Shown here: positions 15,809 to 63,331 of the stretch, in pieces
How positions within the stretch are numbered: the first letter of the stretch is position 1
How the letters are laid out: every line of letters starts with the position of its first letter
NCBI GenBank assembly: GCA_009780435.1
Contig: WRAB01000012.1
Span: 1-64,000 of the forward strand
DNA: 64,000 nucleotides
Direction: 5' to 3'
DNA from: Oscillospiraceae bacterium
Lineage (GTDB): Bacteria > Bacillota > Clostridia > Oscillospirales > Oscillospiraceae
Notes under the pieces: model-generated
Told to the model about the DNA's origin: nothing
Seen by the model: only the letters and a program-made list of their open reading frames with translations
Databases searched by the model: none
Made by a program: the position numbers and the translations under genes

Positions 15809-16288
15809 ATGAAAACTTTGGTCGGCGTAATCATGGGGAGCACTTCGGATTTAGAGACAATGGATCTCGCCTGCGCGGTATTAGAAGCGTTAGAGATCCC
15901 CTACGAAAAAAAAGTCGTATCGGCCCACCGCACCCCGGAATACATGGTGGAGTATGCGAAATCAGCGGCCTCCAGGGGCTTAAAGGTCATTATAGCGGGC
16001 GCGGGGGGCGCGGCCCATCTGCCGGGGATGGTGGCGGCGTGTACAAACTTGCCCGTCATCGGCGTACCTGTCCAGTCGAAGGCGCTCCGCGGGATGGATT
16101 CCCTCTTATCCATCGTCCAGATGCCGGCCGGCACCCCAGTGGCGACCATGGCCATCGGCGCAGCCGGAGCGACCAACGCCGGGCTCCTCGCGGCGCAAAT
16201 CTTGGCGGCATCGGATGAAGCCCTCTATCAAAAACTGCAAGACCGTCGCGCACGTATCCAAAAATCCGTATTAGAAAGCGAAGTGTAA
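15809..16288 (+). CDS. purE: N5-carboxyaminoimidazole ribonucleotide mutase
   Basis: A 159-residue class I PurE that moves the carboxylate from N5-CAIR to C4, giving CAIR. The motifs are [18 protein letters not shown] (catalytic His) and [14 protein letters not shown] partner PurK follows, as required for the class I route. The start ATG 15809 follows GGAGGGG; an in-frame start 39 bases earlier lies inside the attenuator hairpin and is unlikely. This is the first gene of the purine operon. Confidence 0.97.
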
Positions 16289-16290
16289 GC

Positions 16291-17412
16291 ATGAACAGGA
16301 CAATTATGCCCTACCAGACCATCGGGATCATCGGCGGCGGACAACTGGGCCGTATGATGTGCCTCGCCGCCAAAGCCATGGGATACTACGTAGCCGTACT
16401 GGACCCCACCCCAAACTGCCCCGCCGGACAGGTGGCTGATACGGAGATCACAGCGGCATATAACGATCTGGCGGCCATCAAACAACTGGCGGCCATCAGC
16501 GACGTGATCACATATGAGTTTGAGAACATCGACTACGACGCCCTGACCTATCTGGAGCAAAATGCCTATCTGCCCCAGGGCAGCGGCGTATTGAATATCA
16601 CACAGCACCGCTATCGGGAGAAGAAAGCCATCTCCGACCTGGGGATTCCAGTAGCGGACTTCCACCTGATCGACAGCGTAGAGGCCCTGGCGAAACACGT
16701 CTCCTATCCCAGAGTGTTAAAGACGACGACGGGAGGATATGACGGGAAGGGGCAGATTGTTTTAAGATCAGAGGCCGATCTGGACAAAGCCAGGGCGCTC
16801 GTGGCGGAGAATGAATGCATCTTGGAGAAATTCATGCACTTCTCAAAAGAAATCTCTGTGATGATCACCCGCAGTACAGCGGGGGAGACGGCGGTGTTCC
16901 CCGTCTCTGAAAATATCCACATGAACAATATTCTGCATCTGAGCATCGTCCCCGCCCGAATCTCCAAAGAAGTGGAGGCCGAGGCGATTGACTGTGCAAA
17001 AAAAATCGCAGAGCGCCTGGACGCCATCGGCGTACTCGCCATCGAAATGTTCGTCGTAGATGAAAAAATCTATATCAATGAACTGGCGCCCCGCCCCCAC
17101 AACTCCGGCCACTATACGATTGACGCCTGTCTCACCAGCCAGTTTGAACAGCACATCCGGGCCGTGTGCGGCGTGCCGCTGGGGGATACGACCCTCCACA
17201 CCCCCGTTGTGATGGTAAATATTTTAGGCGACCATATGGATCAGCAAAACATGCAAAACCTGGCGCCCTATCTGCCCCTGTTCCCCGCCGGAAAAATCCA
17301 CCTCTACGGAAAGGCCCAGGCGGTGGACAAGCGGAAAATGGGCCATATAAACATTTTGGGCGATATCGACGCCACCCTAAAGGCCATAGACGAGACGAAG
17401 ATTTGGAACTAG
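16291..17412 (+). CDS. purK: N5-carboxyaminoimidazole ribonucleotide synthase
   Basis: A 373-residue ATP-grasp enzyme that carboxylates AIR with bicarbonate and ATP, feeding PurE. It opens with IGIIGGGQLGRMMCLAA. The ATP-grasp core includes LKTTTGGYDGKGQ and FMHFSKEISVM, and the Mg-binding segment is YINELAPRPHNSGHYTIDAC. It lies 2 bp after purE. The start is ATG 16291; ATG 16306 is an alternative with a better AGGA upstream and would remove five residues. Confidence 0.96.
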   Translation: MNRTIMPYQTIGIIGGGQLGRMMCLAAKAMGYYVAVLDPTPNCPAGQVADTEITAAYNDLAAIKQLAAISDVITYEFENIDYDALTYLEQNAYLPQGSGVLNITQHRYREKKAISDLGIPVADFHLIDSVEALAKHVSYPRVLKTTTGGYDGKGQIVLRSEADLDKARALVAENECILEKFMHFSKEISVMITRSTAGETAVFPVSENIHMNNILHLSIVPARISKEVEAEAIDCAKKIAERLDAIGVLAIEMFVVDEKIYINELAPRPHNSGHYTIDACLTSQFEQHIRAVCGVPLGDTTLHTPVVMVNILGDHMDQQNMQNLAPYLPLFPAGKIHLYGKAQAVDKRKMGHINILGDIDATLKAIDETKIWN

Positions 17413-17428: not shown

Positions 17429-17674
17429 ATGTACGAAGTAAAGGTATTTGTTACGCTGAAAGAGAGTATCATAGACCCCGCCGGTACGGCTGTGAAAGAT
17501 GCACTGCACAGATTGGACTTTGCAGAAGTGCAGACTGTGCGGGTGGAGAAAATGATCCGCATGACCATAGCGTCCACCGATGAGATTGAGGCCCGCATCG
17601 AGGCCATGTGCAAAGCGCTCCTGGTCAACACAGTCATGGAAGACTATCGCTATGAGATAGAGAAAATTTCGTGA
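17429..17674 (+). CDS. purS: FGAM synthase subunit PurS
   Basis: An 81-residue PurS, the small subunit that bridges PurQ and small PurL in the formylglycinamidine ribonucleotide synthase complex. The family pattern is clear: [20 protein letters not shown] at the start and [15 protein letters not shown] at the end. ATG 17429 has an ideal GAAGGAGG site. It probably overlaps purQ only if an upstream GTG is used there; otherwise the gap is 17 bp. Confidence 0.96.
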
Positions 17675-17691
17675 AAGGAGCAACTTCATCC

Positions 17692-18363
17692 ATGAAATTT
17701 GCAGTCGTTGTATTTCCCGGCTCCACCGGCGATGCAGATATGGCCCACGCCATCAGAGATGTATTGGGCTGTGACGCAGACTATGTCCGGCACGATGGGA
17801 GCACACTGGACGGGTTTGACGCCATCGTGCTGCCCGGCGGGTTCTCCTACGGAGATTATTTAAGATGCGGCGCCTTGGCCGGCGTATCCGCTATTATCCC
17901 CGCCATCAAAGCGGCGGCGGACGCATCAAAGCCGATTTTAGGCGTGGGCAACGGATTTCAAATCTTGACGGAAATCGGCCTCCTGCCGGGGGCGCTGATC
18001 CGGAATCGGGACACGAAATTCATCTGCGGCCCTGCGGTCTTGACCGTAGAGAACGCAGATATCGGATTCACAAACAAGTACAATCCAAGAGAGACTATCA
18101 CGCTCCCGATTGCCCACGGATGGGGCAGTTATTACGCAGACGAGAACACCCTGGCGACGCTAAAAGCAAATAACCGGATTGTATTCACCTATCAGGACAA
18201 CCCCGATGGGAGCGCCGAGAACATTGCGGGCATTGTGAGCGAGGGCGGCAACGTCCTGGGTATGATGCCCCACCCGGAGCGGGCAGTGGAGCGGCTTCTC
18301 GGCTCTGACGACGGGTTGCGGCTGTTCCAGTCGATTTTACAAACATGGAGGGCGGGCGTATGA
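17692..18363 (+). CDS. purQ: FGAM synthase glutaminase subunit PurQ, catalytic Cys missing
   Basis: A 223-residue class I glutamine amidotransferase-like protein, full length and collinear with PurQ. It normally releases ammonia from glutamine for PurL. The nucleophile motif G-V-C-N-G-F-Q here reads GVGNGFQ: residue 86 is Gly, codon GGC at 17947-17949. The His and Glu of the triad remain (PHPERA, about 194 and 196). The conserved HGEG is HGWG, and the N-terminal PGSNCD is PGSTGD. As written it cannot hydrolyse glutamine. The start ATG 17692 follows AAAGGAG; GTG 17671 is possible. It overlaps purL by ATGA. It may serve as a structural subunit with ammonia as donor, or another PurQ may exist elsewhere. 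Confidence 0.93.
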
Positions 18364-20579
18364 TATCTCCTTTGGAAATGGAACAATCCCGGCTCTACAC
18401 CCAAATGGGCATGACAGATGACGAGTTTCAGCTTGTAAAGGACAGTTTAGGGCGGCTTCCCAACTATACAGAACTTGGGCTCTTCTCCGTCATGTGGTCG
18501 GAACACTGTTCGTACAAAAACTCAAAAGTCCTGTTGCGTCAATTCCCCACCAGAGGTGAGCGGGTGCTCCAGGGTCCGGGCGAGGGGGCCGGAATCGTGG
18601 ATATCGGCGACGGCCTCGCGGTTGTGTTTAAACTGGAGTCCCACAACCACCCCTCGGCGGTGGAACCCTTTGAGGGGGCCGCCACAGGGGTCGGCGGGAT
18701 TCTGCGGGACGTGTTTTCCATGGGCGCGCGTCCCATTGCCATCTTGAGTTCTATGCGGTTTGGAGAACTGACGACAAAGCGGACGAAATACCTGTTTGAA
18801 CAGGCCGTGGCGGGCAGTGCGGCCTATGCAAACGCCATCGGCGTCCCCATCGCCGGGGGCGACACCCAGTTTGACGACTGCTACGCCTCCAATCCCCTGG
18901 TCAACGTCATGTGTGTCGGCCTCATTCGCCACGCGGACATTAAAAAAGGCGTGGCGGAGGGCGTGGGTAACACGGTGATGTACGTGGGCGCCCCCACGGG
19001 AAGAGATGGCATCCACGGTGCTACCTTTGCCAGCACCGAACTCTCGGACGAGTCGGAACAAGAGAGTCCCAACGTCCAGGCGGGGGACCCCTTCGTGGAA
19101 AAACGCCTCATGGAGGCCTGTCTGGAAGTGATGCAGAGCACGGCCCTTGTGGGCATCCAAGACATGGGGGCGGCGGGGCTCATCTCCTCCTCCTCTGAAA
19201 TGGCTTCCAAGGCCGGCACGGGGATTGAGCTGCATTTAGATCAAGTCCCCCAGAGAGAACCGAATATGACCCCTTACGAGATGATGCTAAGCGAATCCCA
19301 GGAGCGGATGCTCTTAGTCGTGGCGCGGGGGCGGGAAGCGGAAGTGGCGGCGTTATTCACAAAATACGACCTAGACGCCGTCGCCATCGGTCAAGTGACA
19401 GGGGATGGCATGGTCCGCCTCATCCACAAGAATGAAGTCTGCGCCGAAGTCCCGGCGGATGCCCTGGCCAAATCCGCACCGGAGTACCACAAGCCGTCGC
19501 AGGAGGCGGCATACTATCGGGCGCAACAAGATATCCAGGCAGAGATTGCACCCATTACGGATTACGGTCAAACCCTGCTGGATCTGTTGGCCCAGCCCAC
19601 TATAGCGAGTAAGCGCTGGATTTCCCATCAGTGCGATTATATGGTCGGCACCAATACGGTGCTGCCCCCGGGGTCAGACGGCGCGGTATTGCGCATTCGC
19701 GGCACGGACAAGGCCATCTCCATGGCGGTGGACTGTAACGCCCGCTATGTATATCTCGATCCCTATATGGGCGGGAAAATCGCCGTGGCAGAGGCGGCCC
19801 GCAACATTGTGGCAAGCGGCGGTATGCCCCTTGCGGTCACGGACAACCTAAACTTTGGCTCACCGGAAAACCCGGAGATTTTCTGGCAGATGGAACAGGC
19901 CGTCCGGGGGATCAGCGCGGCCTGCGGCGTATTTGAGACACCGGTCATCGGGGGGAACGTCTCCCTGTACAACGAGCGGAGCGGAGCGGCCATCTACCCC
20001 ACGCCCACAATCGGGATGGTGGGGCTGATTGACAATCTCTCCCACGTTACCGCATCGGCGTTTGACCGTGCGGGAGATGGGATTTATCTCCTGGGGGAGA
20101 CGCACCCGGAGTTCGGCGGGAGCGAGTTGCAGAAGATGCAAAACAACGGCAAAATCTCCGGCAGACCACCCGGGATCGACTTGGAGATTGAAAAACGCAA
20201 TCAAGACTTGCTACTCTCCGCAATCAGAGCGGGACTTGTGACTGCCGCCCACGATAGTGCAGAGGGGGGGCTCGCGGTCTGCCTGGCGGAGTGCTTAATG
20301 GCGGGCAAAACCTCAATCGGCGCGACCCTGGATATCACGACAGAGGATATAACGGCGTTTCTATTTTCAGAGAGCCAGTCCCGGTTCCTTGTCAGTGTCG
20401 CACCGGAACATCAAGCGGCCTTTGCAGACCTTACAGGGGCGCAGCGATTGGGCCGGACGACAGATACGGGCAGATTGGATGTCTCTATAAACGGGGCGCC
20501 GATTCTCGCGATTCCCGTGGGGCAGATGAGAACGCATTGGGAAGGGGCTATCGAGTGCTTATTGACAGCAGAGGACTAA
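18360..20579 (+). CDS. purL: FGAM synthase subunit PurL (small type)
   Basis: A 739-residue small-type PurL that converts FGAR and ammonia to FGAM with ATP. It belongs to the PurM/AIRS superfamily with two internally repeated halves. Motifs include [34 protein letters not shown] and [18 protein letters not shown]. It lacks the fused glutaminase of large PurL, so it depends on PurS and PurQ, whose catalytic Cys is missing here. Its ATG overlaps the purQ stop (ATGA) and its 3' end overlaps purF by 25 bp, so translation is coupled. Confidence 0.97.
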
Positions 20580-21946
20580 ACGAAGAGTGCGGCATCTTTG
20601 GGATATGGGGCCATAAAGACGCGGCCCAAGTGACCTACTACGGCCTGCACAGCTTACAACACCGCGGGCAAGAGGGTACGGGGATTGTCGTGAAAAATCA
20701 GGACAAGCTGATTCGGCATAAGGGGAAGGGTCTCGTCTCCGAAGTGTTTTCAAAAGATACCCTGGACGCACTGGCAGGCACTGCCGCAATCGGACACGTA
20801 CACTATACCCCCACAGGAAAAACCGATATTGCGAATATACAGCCCTTCTTGTTCCACTTTGAGGAGAACAGTCTGGCCATTTGCCACAACGGAAAACTTG
20901 TGAACGCAAAAACCCTAAGGCGTGAGCTGGAGGATTTGGGCAGTATTTTCCAGACCCGCTCCAATGCGGAGATATTGGCCCATCTGATCAAACGGGTACC
21001 CCGTTTGGATACGGTAGAGAGCCTGAAAGAAGCGCTTTTACAGATCAAGGGCGGCTTTGCCTACATGTTGCTGACACAAAATGCGCTCATCGCGGCGAGA
21101 GACCCCAACGGAATCCGCCCCCTGTCCATCGGGATGCTGGGGAACCGCTATGTAGTCGCGTCTGAAACCTGTGCCTTTGACACCATCGGCGCGACGTTTG
21201 TGCGCGACGTCCTGCCGGGAGAGATCATCGTAATCGACGACAGTGGGCTGAATGCCGTGCGCTATACCGATGACACCGGCATGGCGGTCTGTAGTATGGA
21301 GTTTGTCTACTTTGCCCGGCCGGATTCCAATATCGCGGGGGTGAACGTACACACGGCCCGGAAACATATGGGCAAAACCCTGGCAAAAGAATCCCCCGGG
21401 TTGGCGGACGTGGTGGTGGGCGTACCCGATTCCGGCATATCAGCGGCCATCGGGTATTCAGAGATATCCGGGGTCCCCTATGAGATCGGTCTGATCAAAA
21501 ACCGATATGTGGCTCGGACCTTTATCCAGCCGTCTCAAGAACTCCGGGAGCAGGGAGTGAAGATGAAACTCTCTGCGGTGCGGGGCGTGGTAGAGGGGAA
21601 GCGGGTCATTTTAATTGATGACTCCATCGTGCGCGGGACGACCAGTAAGCGTCTCATCTCCCTTCTGCGGGAGGCGGGGGCAAAAGAGGTGCATATGAAA
21701 GTGGCCTCTCCGCCGCTCAAGCATCCCTGCTTTTACGGGATTGATCTCACCGCGGCGGATGAGTTGATCGCCTTTGAAAATTCCATCGAGGAAATCCGTC
21801 AAATCATCGGCGTAGATTCCCTCTCGTTTTTGAGCATAGAGGGGTTGATCCATGCCGTAAACTTACCCTATGACGGGGCGTACAAGGGGCTATGCATGGC
21901 CTATTTCAATGGAGACTATCCCACGCCTCTATATGATTACGCATAG
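20555..21946 (+). CDS. purF: Amidophosphoribosyltransferase
   Basis: A 463-residue PurF that makes phosphoribosylamine from PRPP and glutamine, the committed step. GTG 20555 is chosen because it gives an 11-residue propeptide ([11 protein letters not shown]) before the catalytic Cys12, exactly the Bacillus arrangement, and AAGGGG lies upstream; the frame is open further up inside purL. The PRPP loop is [14 protein letters not shown]. Of four Fe-S ligands in the Bacillus-type enzyme, three are visible ([27 protein letters not shown]), but the fourth is Tyr450 (CMAY; codon 21902-21904). The cluster may be absent or altered. It overlaps purL by 25 bp. Confidence 0.95.
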
Positions 21947-22017: not shown

Positions 22018-23040
22018 ATGTCAGACCAATACAAGAAGGCCGGCGTGGATATACACGCAGGATATGAAGCGGTATCCCGGATCAAAACCCATGTCAGTAA
22101 GACAAAAATCCCCGGCGTAATTGGCGGTTTAGGCGGATTTGGCGGCCTGTTTGATCTGGGTGGTCTCGGTTTGGCCGAACCCGTATTGGTGAGCGGGACA
22201 GATGGCGTCGGCACAAAGCTGATGCTGGCGTTTGCCATGGACAAACACGACACCATCGGCATAGACGCCGTGGCCATGTGCGTAAATGATATCGTGACAG
22301 CGGGGGCGAAGCCGTTATTTTTCCTGGACTACATCGCCTGCGGGAAGCTGGATCCCAGCCAGATTGAAGCCGTTGTATCCGGGATTAGTGAGGGGTGTGT
22401 CCAGGCGGGATGCGCCCTCATCGGCGGCGAGACGGCGGAGATGCCGGGCATGTACCGGGACGGCGAATACGACTTGGCGGGATTTTGCGTAGGTGTCGTG
22501 GAGAAAAAAGACCTCATCACGGGTGCGGCGATTACGGCGGGAGATGCGCTTATCGGACTGCCGTCCTCAGGGGTACACAGCAACGGATTTTCCCTTGTCC
22601 GACAGATTATTGCGGATAACAATCTGGATTTTCAAAAAACCTACGCCAGGCTTTCAAGCAGCCTAGGAGAGACCTTGCTTGCCCCTACACGCCTCTATGT
22701 AAAGCCCATTTTGCACCTATTGAGCGCCTATCAAATTAAGGGCATGGCGCATGTCACAGGGGGCGGATTTATTGAAAACATCCCCCGGATCCTCCCGGCT
22801 GGCCTGGGGGCCTTTATTGATTTGGGTTCTTGGGACATCTCGCCGATTTTCCCCTTTCTACAGGAGCGGGGGGGTCTCGCGGCGGCGGATATGTACAGCG
22901 TGTTCAACATGGGCATCGGCATGGTTATCGTCGTCGGCGAAGAGGATGTAGAAGGAGTGCGAAAAGCCTTGCAAACCCAAGGCGAAGAAGCCTTCGTCAT
23001 CGGCCAAGTCGATGCGGGTGAGGGAGTGGCGTTTCGATGA
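22018..23040 (+). CDS. purM: Phosphoribosylformylglycinamidine cyclo-ligase (AIR synthetase)
   Basis: A 340-residue PurM that closes FGAM to AIR with ATP. The sequence shows [51 protein letters not shown] and the later [13 protein letters not shown]. The start ATG 22018 follows AAGGGG; the frame is open upstream through the palindrome but lacks a start with a binding site. It overlaps purN by ATGA. Confidence 0.97.
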
Positions 23041-23603
23041 GAAATATTGCGATCTTTGCGTCGGGGAACGGCTCTAATTTTGAAGCCATTGCAACGGCCA
23101 CCCAAGCAGGGGAGATTGGCGCCAAAGTTTCTCTGCTGGTATGCGACAAGCCGGATGCCCACGTGATTTTCCGGGCAAAGAATCATCAGATTCCGGTGTT
23201 TGCCTTTTCTCCCGCGCAGTACGCGGACAAGGCGGCCTATGAGGCGGAGATTTTAGATCAATTACGGGCATTGGACATACAATTTATCGCCTTGGCGGGC
23301 TATATGCGGCTAATCGGCAAAACGCTCTTAGAGGCCTATCCCCACCGGATTGTGAATATCCACCCGTCCCTTCTCCCGGCCTTCCCCGGCAAAGGTGCGA
23401 TCCAACAGGCCTATGAGAGCGGTGCGACGGAGACCGGGGTCAGCGTACACTATGTGGACGCCGGCATGGATACAGGCCCTGTCATCGCCCAGCGCAAAGT
23501 AGAAATCGCGGAAACAGATACGTTGCAGACGCTGGAAGAGAAACTCCATAAGATTGAGCACAATCTTTATATCGAAACACTAAAGTCTCTTTTTGAGGCG
23601 TGA
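23037..23603 (+). CDS. purN: Phosphoribosylglycinamide formyltransferase
   Basis: A 188-residue folate-dependent GART that formylates GAR. It starts [15 protein letters not shown]. The catalytic Asn/His/Asp are in [13 protein letters not shown] and [15 protein letters not shown]. Four bases overlap purM, and the following purD frame begins within its stop region. No formate-dependent PurT is nearby. Confidence 0.97.
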
Positions 23604-23617
23604 GAGGAGGTGGGGCA

Positions 23618-24883
23618 GTGAAAAACAATGTGTTGATCATCGGCGGCGGTGGGCGGGAACACGCCCTGGCTTGGAAATTTGCACAGTCTCCCCGCGTCGG
23701 TAAGGTATATGCCGCGCCGGGAAACCCCGGCATGGGAGACGTGGCGATCTCAGTCAATCTTGCCGCAACTGATTTTGATGGCTTGGTTGTCTTTGCAAGA
23801 GAAAAACAGATATCCCTCACGTTCGTCGGCCCGGAAGTGCCTTTGGTATCCGGGATTGTAGACCGCTTTCAGGCAGAGGGACTCCCCATTTTCGGTCCCC
23901 GTGCCAATGCGGCGATAATAGAGGGGAGCAAATCTTTCGCCAAAGATCTGATGAAAAAATACCAGATTCCAACGGCGGGATATGAGGTCTTCACAGAGTT
24001 TGCATCCGCCTGTCGATATATCGAAGCCCGGACGCCGCCCTTTGTCATCAAGGCGGATGGTCTGGCGGAGGGGAAGGGCGTTGTAATCGCAGAGACGGAA
24101 GAAGACGCCAAACAGGCGTTGCAAGACATGCTTCAAACCGGTAGGTTTGGAGATGCGGGCGCAAGTGTTGTCGTTGAGGAATTTCTGGTGGGGGAGGAGT
24201 TTTCTTTCCTGGCTTTTGTCAACGGACAAGATGTATATCCCATGGTCGTGGCCAAAGACCACAAGCGGGCCTATGACGGAGATCAAGGCCCCAACACCGG
24301 CGGGATGGGCGCATACGCCCCCGTACCGCAGATCCCGGCGTCCGTGCTGGAGGAAGCGGAGCGGGAAATCCTACGTAAAACCGCTTCGGCGCTGGTGAAG
24401 GAGGGGAGAGCGTTTGCAGGTGTCCTATACGCCGGACTCATCGCGACGGCAGAGGGGCCAAAGGTGATTGAATTCAACGCCCGCTTCGGAGACCCGGAAA
24501 CCGAGGTGATCCTCCCGCTGTTGGAGAGTGATCTATACGAGGTTCTGATTGATATTTTAAACAATCAAGCGCCGGATTTGAGGTGGAGCGAGGCGTATGC
24601 CATGGGCGTTGTGCTGGCGTCCAAAGGCTATCCGGGGGCGTATGAGAAGGGTGCGGCAATTGAGGGGCTTTGCGACTTGGCAGACGATACGCTCGTGTTC
24701 CACTGCGGTACAGATTATAGGGGCGGCGAATTTGTGACAAACGGTGGCAGGGTGCTCCTCGTGGCGCAAACAGCGCCGACCCCACAAGGTGCCGGAGCGA
24801 AGCTGTATCGGGAACTCCAAAAAATAAAATGTGACAACCTATTTTACCGAACAGACATAGGAGGTTCTCCATGGCAAGGCTAA
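23618..24883 (+). CDS. purD: Phosphoribosylamine--glycine ligase
   Basis: A 421-residue ATP-grasp GAR synthetase joining glycine to phosphoribosylamine. It opens with NVLIIGGGGREHALAW; later motifs are FVIKADGLAEGKGV, DHKRAYDGDQGPNTGGMGAYAP and EFNARFGDPETEV. GTG 23618 is preferred because AGAGGAGGT lies upstream; GTG 23600 would place that site inside the gene. Its end overlaps purC by 13 bp. Confidence 0.97.
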   Translation: MKNNVLIIGGGGREHALAWKFAQSPRVGKVYAAPGNPGMGDVAISVNLAATDFDGLVVFAREKQISLTFVGPEVPLVSGIVDRFQAEGLPIFGPRANAAIIEGSKSFAKDLMKKYQIPTAGYEVFTEFASACRYIEARTPPFVIKADGLAEGKGVVIAETEEDAKQALQDMLQTGRFGDAGASVVVEEFLVGEEFSFLAFVNGQDVYPMVVAKDHKRAYDGDQGPNTGGMGAYAPVPQIPASVLEEAEREILRKTASALVKEGRAFAGVLYAGLIATAEGPKVIEFNARFGDPETEVILPLLESDLYEVLIDILNNQAPDLRWSEAYAMGVVLASKGYPGAYEKGAAIEGLCDLADDTLVFHCGTDYRGGEFVTNGGRVLLVAQTAPTPQGAGAKLYRELQKIKCDNLFYRTDIGGSPWQG

Positions 24884-25554
24884 TTTATCAGGGCAAGACA
24901 AAAGATGTGTTCGAGAATACAGACGGCACGTATACACTTATGCTAAAAGATGATGCCACAGGCAAAGACGGGATTTTTGATCCCGGGGAAAACACAGTAG
25001 GCCTCAGCATAGAGGGGATGGGCAAGACGTCACTCAAGCTGTCACGGTACTATTTTGAAAAAATTACAGCGGCGGGCATCCCAAACCATTACATCAATAG
25101 CGATATTGCAAACGCCACAATGGACGTGTTACCCGCGGCGATATTTGGGGGCGGTTTGGAGTTCATCTGTAGGCGCCGTGCCGCCGGTAGCTTTTTGAAG
25201 CGCTATGGGTCCTACGCCGCCTTTGGAACAGATCTCAACTATTTCGTGGAGGCCACGCTAAAAGACGACGAACGGCAGGATCCGCAGATAACAAGAGAAG
25301 CGCTGGTTCTGCTCGGGATTATGACTGTTGCGGAGTACGATCTCTGTGCAGAACTGACCAAAAAAATCACCGAGCTGATCGCCGATGATTTGGAAGAAAA
25401 GGGTCTGGAACTGTACGATATCAAGTTCGAGTTCGGGAAAAACGGCGGAGACGTTATGCTCATAGATGAAGTATCCGGCGGGTGTATGCGGGTCTATCGA
25501 GGAGATACGTTTGTGTCGCCGCTGGAGTTGGGGGACGCCGTATTAGGTCAGTAA
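24871..25554 (+). CDS. purC: SAICAR synthetase
   Basis: A 227-residue enzyme joining aspartate to CAIR. It begins with YQGKTKDVFENTDGTY; the family core KDDATGKDG is followed by FICRRRAAGSFLKRYG and, near the end, MLIDEVSGGCMRVY. It is somewhat diverged from the Bacillus form in the middle but full length. AGGAGG precedes ATG 24871 inside the purD end. It is the last gene of the operon; the bifunctional PurH and adenylosuccinate lyase PurB are not encoded here. Confidence 0.94.
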   Translation: MARLIYQGKTKDVFENTDGTYTLMLKDDATGKDGIFDPGENTVGLSIEGMGKTSLKLSRYYFEKITAAGIPNHYINSDIANATMDVLPAAIFGGGLEFICRRRAAGSFLKRYGSYAAFGTDLNYFVEATLKDDERQDPQITREALVLLGIMTVAEYDLCAELTKKITELIADDLEEKGLELYDIKFEFGKNGGDVMLIDEVSGGCMRVYRGDTFVSPLELGDAVLGQ

Positions 25555-54984: not shown

Positions 54985-57900
54985 TCACCCGGCGAACACA
55001 TCGTTAATGTGCTCCGGCCTGGAATCTGGCCGCTCCAGATTTACCCAGGGGCGGTTCGGGATCAGGGCGGTCCAGTATTTATGGACGCCGTCCGGTTTTT
55101 TCTCGTATTCGTTGGAGTTGGTCGCTTCTTGGATGTCTAAGTAGTACCAGACTTCGGTATCCTGGTGATCCGGCCAAGTAATCATGCCCGGCAGCGTATC
55201 GTCGATGGTCTCAAGGTGCCGCTCTAAGATCCGGTTTATGAGGGTTGCCGCCTCGGCCCGTGTGATCTCGCGATCCGGCTCGAAGGAACCGTCACCGATG
55301 CCGACGACCCAGCCGATGCTACCCACCTTGTCGATCTCGACCTCGGCCCAGTGTCCTGTAGTATCGCTGAATAGATTCGGACCGTCGTAGTTGATGTCGA
55401 AGAACCTGGACACCGCTGTTGCGAATTCTCCACGTGTAATCGGGCTGTTGGGTGCAAAGGTGCCGTCCGGTCTACCGAGGAACACCCCTGTGTTGGCCAT
55501 GGTGGAAACCGCGTTGTTGAACCATTGATTGAGAGAGACATCCGGGAAGGGATTCTCCTGTGTCCACATCTCTGTGCGGAACTCATCTGTGATCAGGCGG
55601 AAGAAGATGGTCGCCACCTCTGCGCGGGTGATATTGCCTTCCGGCGCAATCAATCCGCGATCATTGCCAATCAAATACGCATAGTGTTCAGATGTCAGTG
55701 GAATCGAAATATCAACCGTCCACCTGGCGTAGAGATCCAGGTCCGTTGTCACCGGTGTGCTGAAGTCGTAGCGCTGGGTTCCCGCTTCATCCAAGAACCA
55801 TCCGATGAAGTTGAATCCATCGCGGCTCGGGGTATTCGGCTCGGCTACAGGGTTGCCGTCGAGGACTGTGACCCGGAGATAGATGCCGTCGTCCTCTCGG
55901 TAGTAGTTCCAGTAGAAGGTCACGGTGTGTTCATCGGGTGGCGGGTCATTGCTACCGATACGCTCCCACTGGGCGGTAAACACTACACCACCAATAGGCA
56001 TCGCGCATACATCGCCTGCTTGGAAGTGTGTGGCGTCCTGCGGGTATGGCACGTCGGCGGTGGTCCATCCGAGGAAGGTGTAGCCGGGATAGGAGAAGCC
56101 CACGTCATCCACGCCGAGGACCGGCACGGGTCCGCTCTCGACGGTATACGGACCGTCCGGATCGATGAAGGATGCCGCCGTGCCGTTGTTGGCCACGTAG
56201 GTCACGTTGTAGTCTATAGCCCTCCACACGGCGTACAGGATCACGTCGTCGTCCGGCATCTCGAACGTATCGCCCCCGGCGTAGACTTTGTCCTCGTCAG
56301 CCATGTCAGAGGCCCAGCCCTCGAACTCGTATCCGGGCCGGGTCAGGTCACCCTCGCCCAGCACCTGAACTTCCTCGCCCTTAATGTAGTTCGCATCGTC
56401 CACAGGTGCGCCGGAACCGCCGTTGGCGTCATAGATCACGCTATACAGCCCCGACCACTCCGCTGTCAGGCTCACATCACCCGCCGGCATCTGGAATGCG
56501 TCCTCTCCCGGCTGGATCAACGGCGCACCCGCTAGATTAGACCGCCAGCCCATGAACCGATGGCCCGCATTCGTCAGCCCTGTCGGCGCCAATGCGTCTA
56601 CGTTGTCGCCAATGTGGTAGTCCGCCTCGTCTACCGGCACGTCACCCGTTGCACCGCCAGCGTAGTAGGTCACGTTGTAGTCTATGGCTTTCCACACGGC
56701 GTACAGAATCACATCGTCGTCCGGCATCTCGAACGTATCGCCCCCGGCGTAGACTTTGTCCTCGTCAGCCATGTCAGAGGTCCAGCCCTCGAACTCATAT
56801 CCAAGCCGGGTCAGGTCTCCCTTGCCCAGCACCTGGACTTTCTCGCCCTTAATGTAACTCGTTTCGTCCACAGGTGCACTGGAACCGCCGTTGGCATCGT
56901 AAGTCACGGTGAACAGTTCCGCCCAGACTGCCGTCAGCACTACGTCATCCGCGGGCATCTGGAAGGTGTCGTCTGCGCGGTAGAGTGTGTCGTCACCGTC
57001 CATGTTGGAGCGCCAGCCTATGAACCGGTAGCCGTCGTAGGACAGTTTCTCCGCATGTAGGACAGTCACAGAATCGCCCATATTGTAGCCATTTACATCT
57101 ACAGGTACTGCCCCGTTGCCCTGGGTGTCTATGTAGGCCACGGTGTAGTCGACGGCTTCCCAGGCCGCCGTTAGCACCACGCTCTTCGCGGGCATATCAA
57201 ATACGTCGCCGCCTTGGAAGTGGGGGGTATCCTCTGGATACGCTACATCTGCAGTCGTCCACCCCAGGAACGTGTATCCAGCCCGGATCATGAAGCCCTT
57301 GCCGAGGACTGTGACACCTTCTCCTACGATGTACGTCGTAGCATCTACGGGAGCGCCGGAGCCGCCACCTGCGTTGTAAGTCACGGTGAACAGTTCCGCC
57401 CAGACCGCCGTCAGCACCACGTCATCCGCGGGCATCTGGAAGGTGTCGTCTGCGCGGTAGAGTGTGTCGTCACCTGGGATATTTGAGATCCAGCCCATGA
57501 ACCGGTAGCCGTCCCTGGCTAGGTCCGTTTCATCGACCACATCTACGATTGCCTTAGCGTAGTATGGGCCGAGCACGTCCTCAATCACCTCTGTGCTGGT
57601 GCCGCCGTTTGGCGCATAGGTCACAGTGTATAGATCATGGCGCCACTGGGCGTACAGGATCACGTCAGCGGCCTCAAACGTGAGGTCGTCACGCGCGGCA
57701 TAGGCTGTTCCATTGCCGTCAGACTGCGTGTTCCAGCCGATAAATGTCCAGCCGTACCGACTCAAGTCCCCCTGATCTTGTACAGTGGTTTCTTCACCCG
57801 GCAGATACCCTGTACCGTTGGGCGGTGTATCCGTGGGCGGTGCGCCTACACCATTGTTTGCGTCGTAGGCTAGGGTGTATTCTGCGGCCCACTCCGCTGT

Positions 57901-60900
57901 CAAAGTTACATCCTTTGCGGGCATGGTGAATGCGTTTTCCCCCGGCTCAATCAATGGCCCGCCGGTCAGGTTAGAGCGCCAGCCCATGAACCGATACCCG
58001 GCATATAGTAGCCCCGTGGGCACCGCCACGTCGACGTCGTCGCCGATATGATAGTCCGCCGTGTCAACAGGGACTATACCTGTCGCGCCGCCAGCGTAGT
58101 AGGTCACGCTGTAGTCAACGAATTCCCACTGCGCCGTCAAAATCACGTTGGCACCCGGCATGGGGAACGTGTCGCCCGCTTTGTAAATGTTGTCCGTGCC
58201 ATCCGTGTCAGAGATCCAGCCCTCGAAGGTGTACCCTTCCCAGGTCGGCTCGCCTTCGGCCACCGTCACAGTATCTCCGGCAGGGTAGTGTGCACCGTCC
58301 ATCGGTGCACCTGATCCACCACCCGCGTCATAGATCACGGCGTAGTAATCCGGATAAGTGTTGGTCAAATTGACCGCTGCCACATCGCCGTTGATCAGGA
58401 ACATCTGATGGCTCTGTGCCGGCCGCCCCCGTGTCTCAGAACTCTTCAGTTCGCTCCGAAGGGCATATGCAATCGTCGGCGTGTATCCCGCACTGGCCTG
58501 TGTGGCGAGAACCATTCCTGTGCCGGTGGCGTTGGGGACCACCTCGACCACACGATAGTTTCGCTCAGACCACAGGTTGTTAAGGAACAGGGTCTGGCCG
58601 GCACGAATCTCAATGGTGTTGAGGCCGGCATAGGGGTCTGCCGGATCCCAATCCTCCAACTCAATGGGATCGCTAAACCCGTCTGTGCCGTTGCCGACAC
58701 AGCGGAACATGTCCGTTCTCTCCGGCGCATCCGGATCCGGCATCCAGAGCAGAACCGTGTTGTCAGTGGCGTCATAGACTTGGATGTAGAACACTTCGTC
58801 TTCCAGTTTGGTCTCGAAGTGGTCTGGCCAGTAGGGTACCGTCTTGGTCACCTCAAGTCCCGCGACGCCGGGCCGGAAGTTGTTGTATACAAAGATGGGC
58901 GCTGTACCGTCGAGGGCACCTGCATCCAAGACGCCGGCCATCATCAGTGCAATTGCCTGCGTCTGTGTCAAGAGTTGCAGTGACCGGAAACTGTTGTAAA
59001 TGGTCTCATTAATACCCGCTGCAATCAGGATATTCCGATTCCCCGGCACAATATTCGTCCACAGCGGTGCGCCCGCCGCCGGGAAACGGAAGTTAATCGT
59101 ATGCCGCACCCAATAGTCTACCCAAGAAGTGCCATTGGGGTCACTCGGCTCTGTTGCGATTTTGAAAATGTCCTCAATGGGTACATATTCACTGTCAATT
59201 AGGACATATTCTGTGATCTTATAGGATTCCCGGAAACCCAGATCGTTCAAAGTAGCCGGTTCGTTCACACTAAAGGGGAAGTGGGTAATCGGTAAACTGC
59301 TGAACGTCCCAAACGCCTCCTCGTCCTCCACCGATTCGATTCCCATATCTCCATTCCAATCGTACTCACCAGTTATGGGGTTGAGTGTAAACGCTAAGAC
59401 TCTCCATTCGCCTATACCTGCTAGGCCATCTTTGTAGTATCCTTTTTCATCTTTATATACTCCAGTTGTATTCTGCTGCACCATGGCCCGCACAAACGGA
59501 TCGTTCGTCTCCCAATACCACATGGACATGGTGGCATAGAATACGGTGTCCTCGTCTACGACACGCCCGTCTAGGAACCAAGTGTTCGGGCGGGAGATAA
59601 GCGAGAAGTCGGGTTCGCCGACAGGATTTAAATGATCGACATAGCCGTCGGAGAACACTTTGTTCACCACCGCCTGGGTTCCATTTCCGGTGAGATAATG
59701 GTTCAACACCGTCACGGCCATGTCACGTTCTTCTCCGTAGCCGCCCTCGTAGTAGTAACGGGTAGAGATGCGGCTGGTGTTCACGCCATCACGGAATACT
59801 TCTTTCACTTCGTAGTTGTGACCTTCGTCAATGGGCAGACCCACCACCCGTTGCGGCAGATTTGGTCTCACGCCAACCTCGTCCACAATATCGCCCCGGG
59901 CATAGGCTTCGGCATACTTGTCTTCTCCGGTCTCTTCGCCCTCCAGCCAGTAGTAGGTGACAATATCGCTCTCATCCTTGTGTCCAATCACATAGTAGGT
60001 GTACCCCAAAGCGCCGGAGATGCGCTCTCGCTCAAAGATGAGCAGCGTCGCCGCCTCATCATCGTCCGGGGTGTTCCAAAGTTGTATGTAAAACCATGTA
60101 TTCGGTCCTACACCCCAGTCCAGATAGTGACCACTTAATTCTTTGAACAACCAGACGTTTTCGGATTGGTATTTGAATTTGTTCATCACCGAGGTGTATA
60201 TGGTATCGTTGAATCGTAGCGTCTCAACACCGTTGTTGTCATACACTGCACCCCAGTTCACTCTGGTGTCCAAGCAGAAGTTCGACTCGGATTCGACCTC
60301 GTACACGTTCTCCCAGTTTCCCTCCCACTCCTCATACATCCAGGCGCCGGTCGTCCAGCCCGGGACATCGGTGTCGCTGTATCTGTCGTACAGCGTCCAG
60401 CGGTCTGCCCAGCCGAAATCACGATCTTGGGGCGGATCGTTTACGTCGTCTACGTCGGGAATCCCATCCCAGACTGCGATCCACTCGACCTCGAACATCT
60501 CGTTGATGGCAGCTGCCCATGCAGGGGAGAACATGGCGGGGTATTCTCCCGTCTCTGGATTCGGGTCGGCATATTTGCGAATTGCCGCATCCGTCGGAAC
60601 CACCTCGTGGACCTCGTATTCGCCCCAGGTCCACAGGTTTGCCAGCCGGATCCGGTCCCCGGCACGGATGGGCAGTTCCATAATCGGTGCCGGCCTGTCT
60701 TGTGTATACGCCTCCGTCAGTCCGACAATATGGTTACCGACACACCACAGAGTAGTAGTACCCTCGTATTGTGGCCGCACCACGGGGTCAAACAACAGAT
60801 AGTTCTTTGCCTGTACATCCCAGACTCTGACATAAAATACAGTGCGGTCGTCCTCTTCGCTCTCCGGGTCATTTTCAGAGATCACGCCCTGTTCCTCGGG

Positions 60901-62907
60901 GTAGCCTGTGAGCGTTTTATAGATCTGTAAGAAGCCGACTCCGTGGCCGAAGGTATTTTGCACCGTGACCTCTGTGGATTCGTCCTCATTGACCGCAACC
61001 CAGCCATCTTCATCCGGCCACGGGTAGCCGGACAGATCCGGATCCTTGTCACGGTTGGCCGGGTCTGCTCTCGCAATTACAGTCAGCGCTTCCAGCTCCG
61101 CCCCGCCGATGTCATGGAGGGTTTCAGTAATCAGCTCCAGCGGCCAGTCTGCCAGCGCATAGTCATGCACTTCCGTGATCTGATACTTCCACAGGGGCCG
61201 CACACCCTCGCCCGTAATCTCAGGGCTGTTTGCCGGGACGCCTCGGAGCACCGCGGGTGTTGTCTCTGACGCATAGACCAGGGATGCGAACTCAAGGTTG
61301 TGGGTCACGCCGACGTATTCGTATTCGCCGCCGCCCAGACTGGTAAATATCAAATACTCCCCGGCTTGGTTGGTCAGGCGCATTCCAAACCTGGTCGTGG
61401 GGGAGACATTCCAATCGCTCTCCCAGTAGCCGGCCAGGGATTTGTTGATAATCAGATCCCCTGCCTCATAGTCCTCCGGTTTCAGCGCCATGGACAAAGT
61501 TCCCATCATACGCTGTACAATGGTGTGTTGATCCCATACGACAGGGAAGGTGGCCTCGTAGTAGCCGGGATCGCCGGATGACACCGATTTATTCGTCAAG
61601 GACTCAACGCCCCAATCAGTGCCGTCGCCCCACTCCAGGGTGGACCCGTAGTAGTGGTGGGTCAGGGATGAGATCGGTTTCTGGAAAAGTCGCTCCGATG
61701 TGACGGTCCGGCTCAACAGGACAACGACTGACTCGTTGCCGCTCTGACCGCCTACGTCTACTTGATAGTCTATGTATGCGTACGTTCCATCTGGATTGCG
61801 TTCCCGCAACGTGAACCAATAGATTCTCGGTGTACCGCTTCTCTGCCAGTTGACGTGGTACTCAAAGTTTCTTACAATTACCCTGTTATCAGCCGTGATG
61901 TATCTGGACGTTGCCGCCGTCCACGCCACACCGGGGGTCAAATAGTGTTGACGATCTGCGTTTTTCTGGGTGGGCATCATAAGGTCAATTTGCAAATCGT
62001 GATCAATCAGGGTGAGCGTACCGTTGTACCCGCCGTTATTATTGCCTGAGTTAATACTAAAGTTCAAAAACTGTACTCTTGGATCTTCACGAGAGACAAG
62101 TTCTCTCGTCCAATAGTACCCGTTCTCCTCCGCAGGCTTAAACCACGCATAGGAGGCCTCAGAGTTAAAGAAACGCCCCAACTGCTCAGTGGGGTTGATT
62201 CCAGCTTCCGGTTTTTCCCCCAGCCAGACCCGGATCGTCGTCGACGCCGGTTCTGCGCCGGTGATCATGCTCTCTGGCACACGCCAGACAACATAGTGAC
62301 AGTGCTCACCACACTTCAAGACGCCGTCTTCGCTCTCGTCCACATAGTACCCCTCGCCATCAATGTGGCCCCGGTACTCTATGCAGTCTTCAAAGGAGAA
62401 CTCACCCAGGTGGCTCACCATATAGACATAGCCTTCGCCATCCGCTTCCAAGGCCAACAGAGATGTCATCGGCTCCCCCGTGTCGGGATCAAGTTTCGGG
62501 TTCCCCTGTTGATCTAGGTGTACATAGGGTCTCGCCTGGGCGTACAGGGTTGCGGTAATCCATCCAGTGTAATCCCCGTCCCCATCATTGAGGGTTTCGT
62601 CCCACTCGTATGTGACTGCCCGGCCCGTCCAGACCTCACCGGGCGCCAATTCCATCATCATTCCGGTCGCCGTCGTCGACTGACCGTAGCGTGTGATCGG
62701 ATGTCCAACCGGCGAGGAAAATCCGACGGGTTCCCCGGGAGGCCATCCGTCTGGCTCTCCGGTCAGGACAATGTGATCCGGGAACAGGTCTTCCGGATAC
62801 GTCGGGAGCTCGCTCTCCAATGCGTATGCAAAGGGAGCGGCTGGAACATGGCCGAGAACAAGAATAAATGCGAGCAAAAGACTTATTATTTTTTTCGGGC
62901 TTTTCAT
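54985..62907 (-). CDS. Giant SLH-anchored repeat surface protein
   Basis: 2640 residues. The signal peptide MKSPKKIISLLLAFILVLG is followed by about 1500 residues with at least five Cna_B/SpaA-like modules (openings such as INKSLAGYW, IYKTLTGYP, LFKELSGHY, VVNKVFSDGY, VTKTVPYWP; each ends YEVxEV-like). Residues about 1520-2400 hold 11 InlB-type (Listeria-Bacteroides) repeats ending LTAEW, LTAVW or similar; three SLH domains fill the C-terminus (AEVATIFFRLI, GEFATAVSRFF, AEAATLINRIL). SLH domains bind pyruvylated wall polymers. ATG 62907 follows AGAGGAG. It is probably an adhesin or S-layer-associated protein. Confidence 0.9.
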   Translation of the reverse strand: MKSPKKIISLLLAFILVLGHVPAAPFAYALESELPTYPEDLFPDHIVLTGEPDGWPPGEPVGFSSPVGHPITRYGQSTTATGMMMELAPGEVWTGRAVTYEWDETLNDGDGDYTGWITATLYAQARPYVHLDQQGNPKLDPDTGEPMTSLLALEADGEGYVYMVSHLGEFSFEDCIEYRGHIDGEGYYVDESEDGVLKCGEHCHYVVWRVPESMITGAEPASTTIRVWLGEKPEAGINPTEQLGRFFNSEASYAWFKPAEENGYYWTRELVSREDPRVQFLNFSINSGNNNGGYNGTLTLIDHDLQIDLMMPTQKNADRQHYLTPGVAWTAATSRYITADNRVIVRNFEYHVNWQRSGTPRIYWFTLRERNPDGTYAYIDYQVDVGGQSGNESVVVLLSRTVTSERLFQKPISSLTHHYYGSTLEWGDGTDWGVESLTNKSVSSGDPGYYEATFPVVWDQHTIVQRMMGTLSMALKPEDYEAGDLIINKSLAGYWESDWNVSPTTRFGMRLTNQAGEYLIFTSLGGGEYEYVGVTHNLEFASLVYASETTPAVLRGVPANSPEITGEGVRPLWKYQITEVHDYALADWPLELITETLHDIGGAELEALTVIARADPANRDKDPDLSGYPWPDEDGWVAVNEDESTEVTVQNTFGHGVGFLQIYKTLTGYPEEQGVISENDPESEEDDRTVFYVRVWDVQAKNYLLFDPVVRPQYEGTTTLWCVGNHIVGLTEAYTQDRPAPIMELPIRAGDRIRLANLWTWGEYEVHEVVPTDAAIRKYADPNPETGEYPAMFSPAWAAAINEMFEVEWIAVWDGIPDVDDVNDPPQDRDFGWADRWTLYDRYSDTDVPGWTTGAWMYEEWEGNWENVYEVESESNFCLDTRVNWGAVYDNNGVETLRFNDTIYTSVMNKFKYQSENVWLFKELSGHYLDWGVGPNTWFYIQLWNTPDDDEAATLLIFERERISGALGYTYYVIGHKDESDIVTYYWLEGEETGEDKYAEAYARGDIVDEVGVRPNLPQRVVGLPIDEGHNYEVKEVFRDGVNTSRISTRYYYEGGYGEERDMAVTVLNHYLTGNGTQAVVNKVFSDGYVDHLNPVGEPDFSLISRPNTWFLDGRVVDEDTVFYATMSMWYWETNDPFVRAMVQQNTTGVYKDEKGYYKDGLAGIGEWRVLAFTLNPITGEYDWNGDMGIESVEDEEAFGTFSSLPITHFPFSVNEPATLNDLGFRESYKITEYVLIDSEYVPIEDIFKIATEPSDPNGTSWVDYWVRHTINFRFPAAGAPLWTNIVPGNRNILIAAGINETIYNSFRSLQLLTQTQAIALMMAGVLDAGALDGTAPIFVYNNFRPGVAGLEVTKTVPYWPDHFETKLEDEVFYIQVYDATDNTVLLWMPDPDAPERTDMFRCVGNGTDGFSDPIELEDWDPADPYAGLNTIEIRAGQTLFLNNLWSERNYRVVEVVPNATGTGMVLATQASAGYTPTIAYALRSELKSSETRGRPAQSHQMFLINGDVAAVNLTNTYPDYYAVIYDAGGGSGAPMDGAHYPAGDTVTVAEGEPTWEGYTFEGWISDTDGTDNIYKAGDTFPMPGANVILTAQWEFVDYSVTYYAGGATGIVPVDTADYHIGDDVDVAVPTGLLYAGYRFMGWRSNLTGGPLIEPGENAFTMPAKDVTLTAEWAAEYTLAYDANNGVGAPPTDTPPNGTGYLPGEETTVQDQGDLSRYGWTFIGWNTQSDGNGTAYAARDDLTFEAADVILYAQWRHDLYTVTYAPNGGTSTEVIEDVLGPYYAKAIVDVVDETDLARDGYRFMGWISNIPGDDTLYRADDTFQMPADDVVLTAVWAELFTVTYNAGGGSGAPVDATTYIVGEGVTVLGKGFMIRAGYTFLGWTTADVAYPEDTPHFQGGDVFDMPAKSVVLTAAWEAVDYTVAYIDTQGNGAVPVDVNGYNMGDSVTVLHAEKLSYDGYRFIGWRSNMDGDDTLYRADDTFQMPADDVVLTAVWAELFTVTYDANGGSSAPVDETSYIKGEKVQVLGKGDLTRLGYEFEGWTSDMADEDKVYAGGDTFEMPDDDVILYAVWKAIDYNVTYYAGGATGDVPVDEADYHIGDNVDALAPTGLTNAGHRFMGWRSNLAGAPLIQPGEDAFQMPAGDVSLTAEWSGLYSVIYDANGGSGAPVDDANYIKGEEVQVLGEGDLTRPGYEFEGWASDMADEDKVYAGGDTFEMPDDDVILYAVWRAIDYNVTYVANNGTAASFIDPDGPYTVESGPVPVLGVDDVGFSYPGYTFLGWTTADVPYPQDATHFQAGDVCAMPIGGVVFTAQWERIGSNDPPPDEHTVTFYWNYYREDDGIYLRVTVLDGNPVAEPNTPSRDGFNFIGWFLDEAGTQRYDFSTPVTTDLDLYARWTVDISIPLTSEHYAYLIGNDRGLIAPEGNITRAEVATIFFRLITDEFRTEMWTQENPFPDVSLNQWFNNAVSTMANTGVFLGRPDGTFAPNSPITRGEFATAVSRFFDINYDGPNLFSDTTGHWAEVEIDKVGSIGWVVGIGDGSFEPDREITRAEAATLINRILERHLETIDDTLPGMITWPDHQDTEVWYYLDIQEATNSNEYEKKPDGVHKYWTALIPNRPWVNLERPDSRPEHINDVFAG
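55930..58320. repeat. Tandem repeats encoding InlB-type modules
   Basis: Units of about 230 bp. Some are nearly identical: 56222-56380 matches 56697-56850, and 56914-57000 matches 57384-57475. Homologous recombination could add or remove modules. Long antisense open frames on the plus strand here are a by-product of this composition. Confidence 0.85.
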
Positions 62908-62964
62908 GGTGACACGCTCCTCTCTGCACAGATGCTGGGGCATATGGTATACTTTCACATCATC

Positions 62965-62993
62965 AGTATGGCTTGTGTGTGCAAAATAGTCAA
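62965..62993 (-). promoter_or_regulatory. Promoter of giant surface protein gene
   Basis: Minus strand TTGACT, 17 bp, CATACT, about 58 bp before the start codon. Confidence 0.6.
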
Positions 62994-63331
62994 TCCATTT
63001 CACAATAAATTAACAGTTTTCGTTAAAAATCACAGAAAGTTCATGTTTCGTTCAAAGTATGTACAAATGTAATCGAATGCAGTCGGATGTCGATCTATCT
63101 GTTCTCCCCAGTGATAGTACCCAAATACCATAATTTTCACGATTTTTTAAGCTTGCTCTATATTTAATTTTATCGTTTTATTGAATGCGCTCCATATTCA
63201 AACTTCGAGATTAAACAGCGCATATCTACCCCAAATTATTGTGGTACACGTCGCAATATTTTAGTGTAGCCAAACCGATCCACCTATGGTAGAATAATCG
63301 TATCTTTAAAATCATCTAAGGAGGCAAAGTC
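62994..63331. other. AT-rich intergenic region
   Basis: No gene or clear RNA is seen in about 340 bp between the divergent surface-protein and 120-residue genes. Near its right end, TAGCCA, 17 bp, TAGAAT (about 63267-63295) is a weak promoter for the next gene. Confidence 0.5.

Follow-up and report, generated by a model that had tools for sequence, protein, structure and literature searches.

The purine operon analysed here raises the question of how an FGAM synthase can work, and why its glutaminase subunit PurQ is kept, when PurQ has no catalytic cysteine. The window, by which we mean the whole stretch of 64,000 nucleotides, comes from an Oscillospiraceae bacterium (assembly GCA_009780435.1, contig WRAB01000012.1). 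Glutamine amidotransferases with ammonia tunnels are the textbook case of avoiding free ammonia. An earlier note made from the sequence had suggested that this synthase may run on free ammonia or on ammonia from another glutaminase, with PurQ serving as a scaffold. The missing cysteine is real and no artefact; it is the tip of a genome-wide pattern that has evolved more than once.

The PurQ of the window and the origin of its operon

The gene purQ lies on the forward strand at 17692-18363, within an open reading frame spanning 17671-18363, with its ATG at 17692 and its stop at 18363, and it was identified by reading frame, profile scores and predicted fold. It encodes 223 residues. Reading frame and PurQ alignment place a GGC codon for Gly86 (17947-17949) where the nucleophile Cys86 is expected, and the motif reads ILGV[G]NGFQ, that is GVGNGFQ instead of the GVCNGFQ of the family. 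The same alignment has Thr12-Gly13 in place of Asn12-Cys13 (17725-17730, PGSNCD to PGSTGD) and Trp144 in place of Glu144 (18121-18123, HGEG to HGWG); His194-Pro-Glu196 of the triad are retained in PHPERA (18271-18279), where Sporosarcina has Leu for the His. In all these respects, the normal length included, the earlier note had read the sequence correctly. The protein matches the PurQ profile TIGR01737 over residues 1-219 with 268.4 bits (cut-off 177.8) and NF002957 with 309.2 bits (cut-off 212). Its AlphaFold2 model (pLDDT 91.1, pTM 0.91) has the class I glutaminase fold, with TM 0.89, an rmsd of 1.5 and E 1.6e-28 against Thermotoga PurQ (3d54_D), and the predicted fold is intact. Judged by profile, genomic context and fold, it is a true PurQ, yet one that fails in the defining catalytic residue. 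For such genes the label 'glutamine-hydrolysing' is unsafe without a test, since they bear this name though they are probably incapable of hydrolysis.

The operon runs purE-K-S-Q-L-F-M-N-D-C on the forward strand, and all ten genes are open and full length. Upstream of purQ lie purE (15809-16288), purK (16291-17412) and directly adjacent purS (17429-17674), homologues of which are present in 103 fetched loci. On its other side purQ is flanked by the small purL for the synthetase subunit of 739 residues (18360-20579, from profile and alignment), followed by purF (20558-21946, from alignment, with B. subtilis mature numbering), purM (22018-23040) and, by sequence reading, purN (23037-23603), purD (23600-24883) and purC (24871-25554). 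Of 250 genomes searched in the host's family, its own included, the other 249 gave no separate PurQ at E 1e-30. Relatives of the host carry a large single-chain PurL, with GICNGFQ in all 29 read from one search of the order. The nearest PurQs come from Bacilli, the best with 65% identity. Since the family has no separate PurQ and the nearest ones are from Bacilli, the purSQL genes look horizontally acquired and Bacilli-like. In one tree the window branches near Carnobacteriaceae/Enterococcaceae (support 92) and in another beside Paenibacillaceae (94), and its operon proteins always sit on a long end branch (0.82-0.87). The G+C content of the operon stretch (54-57%) lies inside that of the window (48-58%). 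As a side observation, the glutaminase Cys of the large single-chain PurL is replaced by Gly or Ser in two further genomes from the order of the window (loci L265 and L266, genomes G1049 and G729).

Recurrence of the loss, selection and changes in PurL

Because the host's own family holds no comparable PurQ, relatives for comparison were sought in Bacilli. We call a PurQ with Cys86 live and one without it dead. Cys86 is present in 82 of 117 compared PurQs; the other 35 have Gly (33) or Ser (2) and are confined to a handful of lineages, which bears out the view of the earlier note that no single sequencing error is involved. Positions 12, 51 and 144 vary together with Cys86: Asn occupies position 12 in 77/82 live vs 2/35 dead PurQs, and every live sequence (82/82) has Glu, Asp or Gln at position 144 vs only 4/35 dead ones, where aromatics (Y, F, H, W) dominate. 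The triad His is gone in 29 of the 35 dead PurQs; the window's PurQ retains it. However, Thermotoga maritima PurQ (3D54) reads HGFG although its Cys is present, and five live PurQs have PGTW in place of PGSN. Positions 144 and 12 are by themselves not diagnostic, and the weight that the note had put on the HGEG and PGSNCD changes stands only in so far as both are strongly associated with Cys86 loss in the compared set.

In a first set of 81 separate PurQs, Gly86 was also found in Sporosarcina limicola, Sporosarcina sp. HYO08 and Amphibacillus sp. MSJ-3. PurQ was then obtained from 58 of 61 genomes of the genus Sporosarcina, and the scores are bimodal: five genomes near 300 bits have a live PurQ, and among the 53 lower-scoring ones all 25 that were read have Gly86 together with Leu for His194. 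A motif survey at class level (399 genomes) added the dead lineages G369 and G649 (both Ser86) and G694/G478 (Gly86, His retained); the last pair is sister to Sporosarcina, and the dead lineages include two on the Paenibacillaceae side. About 20 Cys-less motif matches in that survey (GVANGFQV, from genomes of 2.0-2.5 Mb) were rejected as RmlC-like sugar epimerases by sequence. The match in G685 (L271) was rejected for having neither a PurQ nor a PurL match.

The PurQ loss of the window is phylogenetically independent of that of Sporosarcina. A single clade of the window and the dead Sporosarcina was rejected on PurL plus PurF (AU p 4.9e-5), and more strongly on proteins without the trait, namely PurE, PurK, PurM and PurF in its phosphoribosyltransferase half (AU p 3.6e-58, lnL difference 142.6). 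On the PurL-only tree the window joining the Sporosarcina clade was not rejected (p 0.66), a result behind which convergent PurL columns may lie; the genes without the trait settle the matter. In well-supported parts of the trees, Amphibacillus MSJ-3 groups with A. marinus, whose PurQ is live, and G369 with live Paenibacillus; the PurL tree needs a minimum of four changes between live and dead. Within Sporosarcina, outside the window's own lineage, dead PurQ has a median dN/dS of 0.078 (70 pairs), vs 0.088 (23 pairs) for live PurQ of Bacilli. Dead PurQ in Sporosarcina is under purifying selection as strong as that on live PurQ.

The synthetase subunit has changed along with PurQ. Columns 97, 224 and 429 of PurL show no variation across 37 live sequences, drawn from several phyla, and are changed in at least three of the five dead lineages (expected 0.04; 0/5000 permutations), in a test that is post hoc in that the dead lineages were already known. 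When one live exception is allowed, columns 159, 236 and 425 are added (expected 0.20, again 0/5000 permutations), and three mirrored control sets of live long-branch lineages gave no such column. None of the five dead lineages retains Cys159, which is replaced by A, I, K, G, R, T or S. The PurL of the window has C159A, R236S, Y425C, V149A, G155A and I115L at sites recurrently changed in dead-PurQ lineages; it retains H97, A224 and V429, and thus carries only part of the shared signature. We infer that these changes might be linked to the path of ammonia. A simple count of sites that do not vary among close Bacilli and differ in three or more of the five dead lineages gave 11 and had looked striking against uniform permutation. 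However, live long-branch controls give 14-19 such sites, and the count was dropped in favour of the stricter test described above.

Other glutamine enzymes in the host and in the parallel lineages

The genome of the window (2.16 Mb in 40 contigs, 96.7% complete, 0.34% contaminated) holds further losses. The earlier note had called the purine operon otherwise intact, which did not hold up: the glutamine site of PurF is damaged. It retains the mature N-terminal Cys1 (EECGIFG, 20588-20590) and carries R72H (20801-20803), T75P (20810-20812), N103K (20894-20896) and D126N (20963-20965), at positions that are invariant in 29 live-PurQ Bacilli (Arg72 and Asp126 in 29/29). Arg72 and Asp126 are the counterparts of residues that hold glutamine in class II enzymes. 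At invariant columns the glutaminase half deviates at 4/49 vs 2/64 in the phosphoribosyltransferase half. Separately, one Cys that binds the iron-sulphur cluster in B. subtilis PurF is apparently Tyr here (GLCMAYF vs GQCLACF).

GuaA (L276:2964-4214, contig 6) has a 75-residue remnant of the N-terminal glutaminase, followed by an intact synthetase (ATP-PPase); the stretch bearing Cys, His and Glu is missing, and guaA_Nterm scores 45.5 bits vs a cut-off of 172. GuaA lacks the glutaminase domain altogether in G001 and G003, two relatives from the same genus. CarA (L275:3850-4930, contig 5) retains its Cys-His-Glu triad and reads QGHQY where QNHGF is expected, a change from QNHG to QGHQ that alters two glutamine-pocket residues known from E. 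coli CarA. From its sequence, CarA is probably part of the same loss of glutamine-dependent amidotransfer. Searches of the genome with PF00117 and GATase_6 found only CarA and only PurF, respectively; no GlmS- or AsnB-type glutaminase was found. A second purQ, for which the earlier note had wanted the genome searched, or any other FGAM-synthase glutaminase was not found in this 96.7% complete assembly. A search for CTP synthase (PyrG) in four genomes of the window's genus found it in none. Assembly gaps could be part of the reason why GlmS, AsnB and PyrG are absent, although PyrG is missing in all four genomes. However, a GSIII-type (type III-like) glutamine synthetase is present which, together with a CarA with intact triad, counts against calling the host glutamine-free. 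Directly upstream of the gene for this glutamine synthetase are genes that resemble, by eye, a molybdenum hydroxylase (xanthine dehydrogenase-like) set (L277:425-5977, contig 10).

Comparable losses surround dead PurQ in other bacteria. PyrG has Ser or Gly for its Cys in all 12 genomes of the genus Sporosarcina that were read, two of them with live PurQ, and since its Cys is lost even where PurQ is live, the glutaminase losses of this genus look stepwise. The Cys or the whole region of GuaA is lost in 12 of 16, and both Sporosarcina CarA sequences read have Gly for Cys. Amphibacillus MSJ-3 has Asp for the GuaA Cys and has lost His and Glu of CarA; its glnA gives matches only as three separate pieces, the pattern of a broken gene. 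In Sporosarcina glnA is present in all five live-PurQ genomes and missing in six of the 11 dead-PurQ genomes tested. GlmS- or AsnB-type glutaminase domains were not found in the dead-PurQ genomes G274, G324 and G275 (Amphibacillus MSJ-3), whereas the live controls G276 and G295 have them. It is a possibility that these three genomes and that of the window, which lack a GlmS-type domain, obtain glucosamine-6-phosphate from the deaminase run backwards on ammonia. Sporosarcina pasteurii is reported to require ammonia, for which urea can substitute, and to be devoid of GS and GOGAT activity (PMC7775470, citing older work). The glutaminase losses may explain genetically why this organism, which is used in biocementation, has its long-known need for ammonia. 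Our search of the open literature, as distinct from subscription papers, found no prior report of dead PurQ in bacteria or of the joint glutaminase loss in Sporosarcina.

A probable ammonia-dependent FGAM synthase

Going by sequence evidence, we consider it quite likely that the window encodes an FGAM synthase running on free ammonia, with a structural PurQ and a retuned PurL, within a genome-wide retreat from glutamine. Without its thiol nucleophile PurQ would carry out no glutamine hydrolysis, a loss that the earlier note had proposed and that independent lineages appear to share, and the PurS-PurQ-PurL complex would make FGAM from FGAR, ATP and free ammonia. The residues, the other enzymes of the genome and the parallels all point to such use. 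PurQ would be retained out of a structural need of the PurL-PurS complex, as its conservation and the selection on it in the parallel lineages suggest, and the co-variation with Cys86 loss suggests that PurL may have been retuned for ammonia not supplied by PurQ. The wider loss of glutamine-dependent amidotransfer would comprise the PurF glutamine site, the GuaA glutaminase domain and probably CarA, with no GlmS or AsnB found. An ammonia-rich niche would be the likely setting, and the same syndrome would have arisen independently in Sporosarcina, Amphibacillus and others. Of the suggestions in the earlier note, the loss of the glutaminase, free ammonia as substrate and the scaffold role gain support from the recurrence of dead PurQ, its fixation and purifying selection in the main Sporosarcina clade with the ammonia-requiring S. 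pasteurii, the PurL co-variation and the intact predicted fold. B. subtilis PurL is able to use external ammonia. Cys mutants of E. coli PurF use ammonia as well (PMC3261824), and so do GMP synthetases, and the synthetase parts of amidotransferases generally, with external ammonia when the glutaminase is inactive (PMC10526850).

Could the operon instead be decaying, with de novo purine synthesis dispensable and PurQ a pseudogene before its first frameshifts? The long end branch of its proteins would fit, as would two damaged glutaminase sites within one operon. However, ten open, full-length genes, a conserved PurL and a phosphoribosyltransferase half of PurF with few deviations are hard to reconcile with decay, as are a dead PurQ conserved throughout Sporosarcina at a dN/dS near 0.08 and losses in PurF and GuaA that hit the glutaminase parts and spare the synthetase parts; we regard decay as unlikely. 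It is also quite unlikely that a dead PurQ receives its ammonia in trans, from CarA or a free glutaminase, rather than from the free pool, an option that the earlier note had left standing. The retained CarA triad and the presence of glutamine synthetase would allow it, but CarA, which alone was found by the PF00117 search and is the only other class I glutaminase domain found, has a changed glutamine-binding motif, and PurF and GuaA have lost the same function, which a shared ammonia pool fits better.

A PurQ that hydrolyses glutamine by a route without Cys, for example through another residue near Gly86, is very improbable. His194 and Glu196 and the predicted fold are intact in the window, but the reaction of class I glutaminases proceeds through a cysteinyl thioester, human CPS1, in which Ser replaces the Cys, is unable to use glutamine (PMC4655335), the His is also gone in most dead PurQs, and the glutamine site of PurF, with its unrelated fold, is lost in parallel. 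That the finding reflects a mistake in sequencing or assembly, or a contig that contaminates the bin, is hardly credible: although the assembly consists of 40 contigs and the operon looks out of place in the family, independent changes occur in PurQ, PurF, GuaA and CarA across different contigs, the low contamination of the bin and the G+C content of the operon argue against it, and the same class of loss is found in named genomes of other bacteria.

The free-ammonia reading has relatives among known systems. With the PurS-PurQ-PurL of Bacilli and Thermotoga (TIGR01737, TIGR01736; 3D54) the window shares the purSQLF order, lengths, fold and scores above cut-offs; it differs in having no Cys86 and in a PurL altered at sites conserved in live systems. 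Ammonia-specific CPS I of human and frog likewise keeps a dead glutaminase domain structurally and uses external ammonia (PMC4655335), a mode that residues and parallels suggest for the window; the human enzyme lost the Cys and the frog enzyme lost glutamine binding (PMC4655335), the latter being ammonia-specific with all of its triad present and its glutamine site altered (PMC4655335, PMC7657897). However, CPS I belongs to another pathway and is one animal enzyme, whereas here several enzymes are affected in one bacterium and losses are repeated among bacteria. The crenarchaeal PurF' without N-terminal Cys is also a purine amidotransferase without nucleophile for which ammonia use has been suggested, but it is a paralogue beside a normal PurF, and the survey reporting it found the PurQ Cys fully conserved (PMC3261824). 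The ATP-PPase subunit of two-subunit GMP synthetase shows that a synthetase part without glutaminase can take external ammonia (PMC10526850); in the window's genome, by contrast, the eroded glutaminase domain is still part of GuaA, and a glutaminase as a subunit of its own was not found.

On balance we incline towards the broader view that several lineages independently gave up glutamine as biosynthetic nitrogen carrier. They would share joint glutaminase losses, in some cases loss of glutamine synthetase too, and a common solution in the synthetase subunit for free ammonia; nearly no free glutamine would be possible in Sporosarcina and Amphibacillus without an intact glnA, and the genome of the window would be a new independent case on an apparently transferred Bacilli operon. 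Lineages that switched PurQ off independently make it testable which roles PurQ has beyond glutamine hydrolysis and which PurL residues control ammonia entry.

Elsewhere in the window, on the reverse strand at 54985-63003, lies a gene for a predicted surface protein of 2672 residues with many YNAGGGSGAPVD...GYTFxGW-type repeats and, by eye, S-layer-like repeats at its C terminus.
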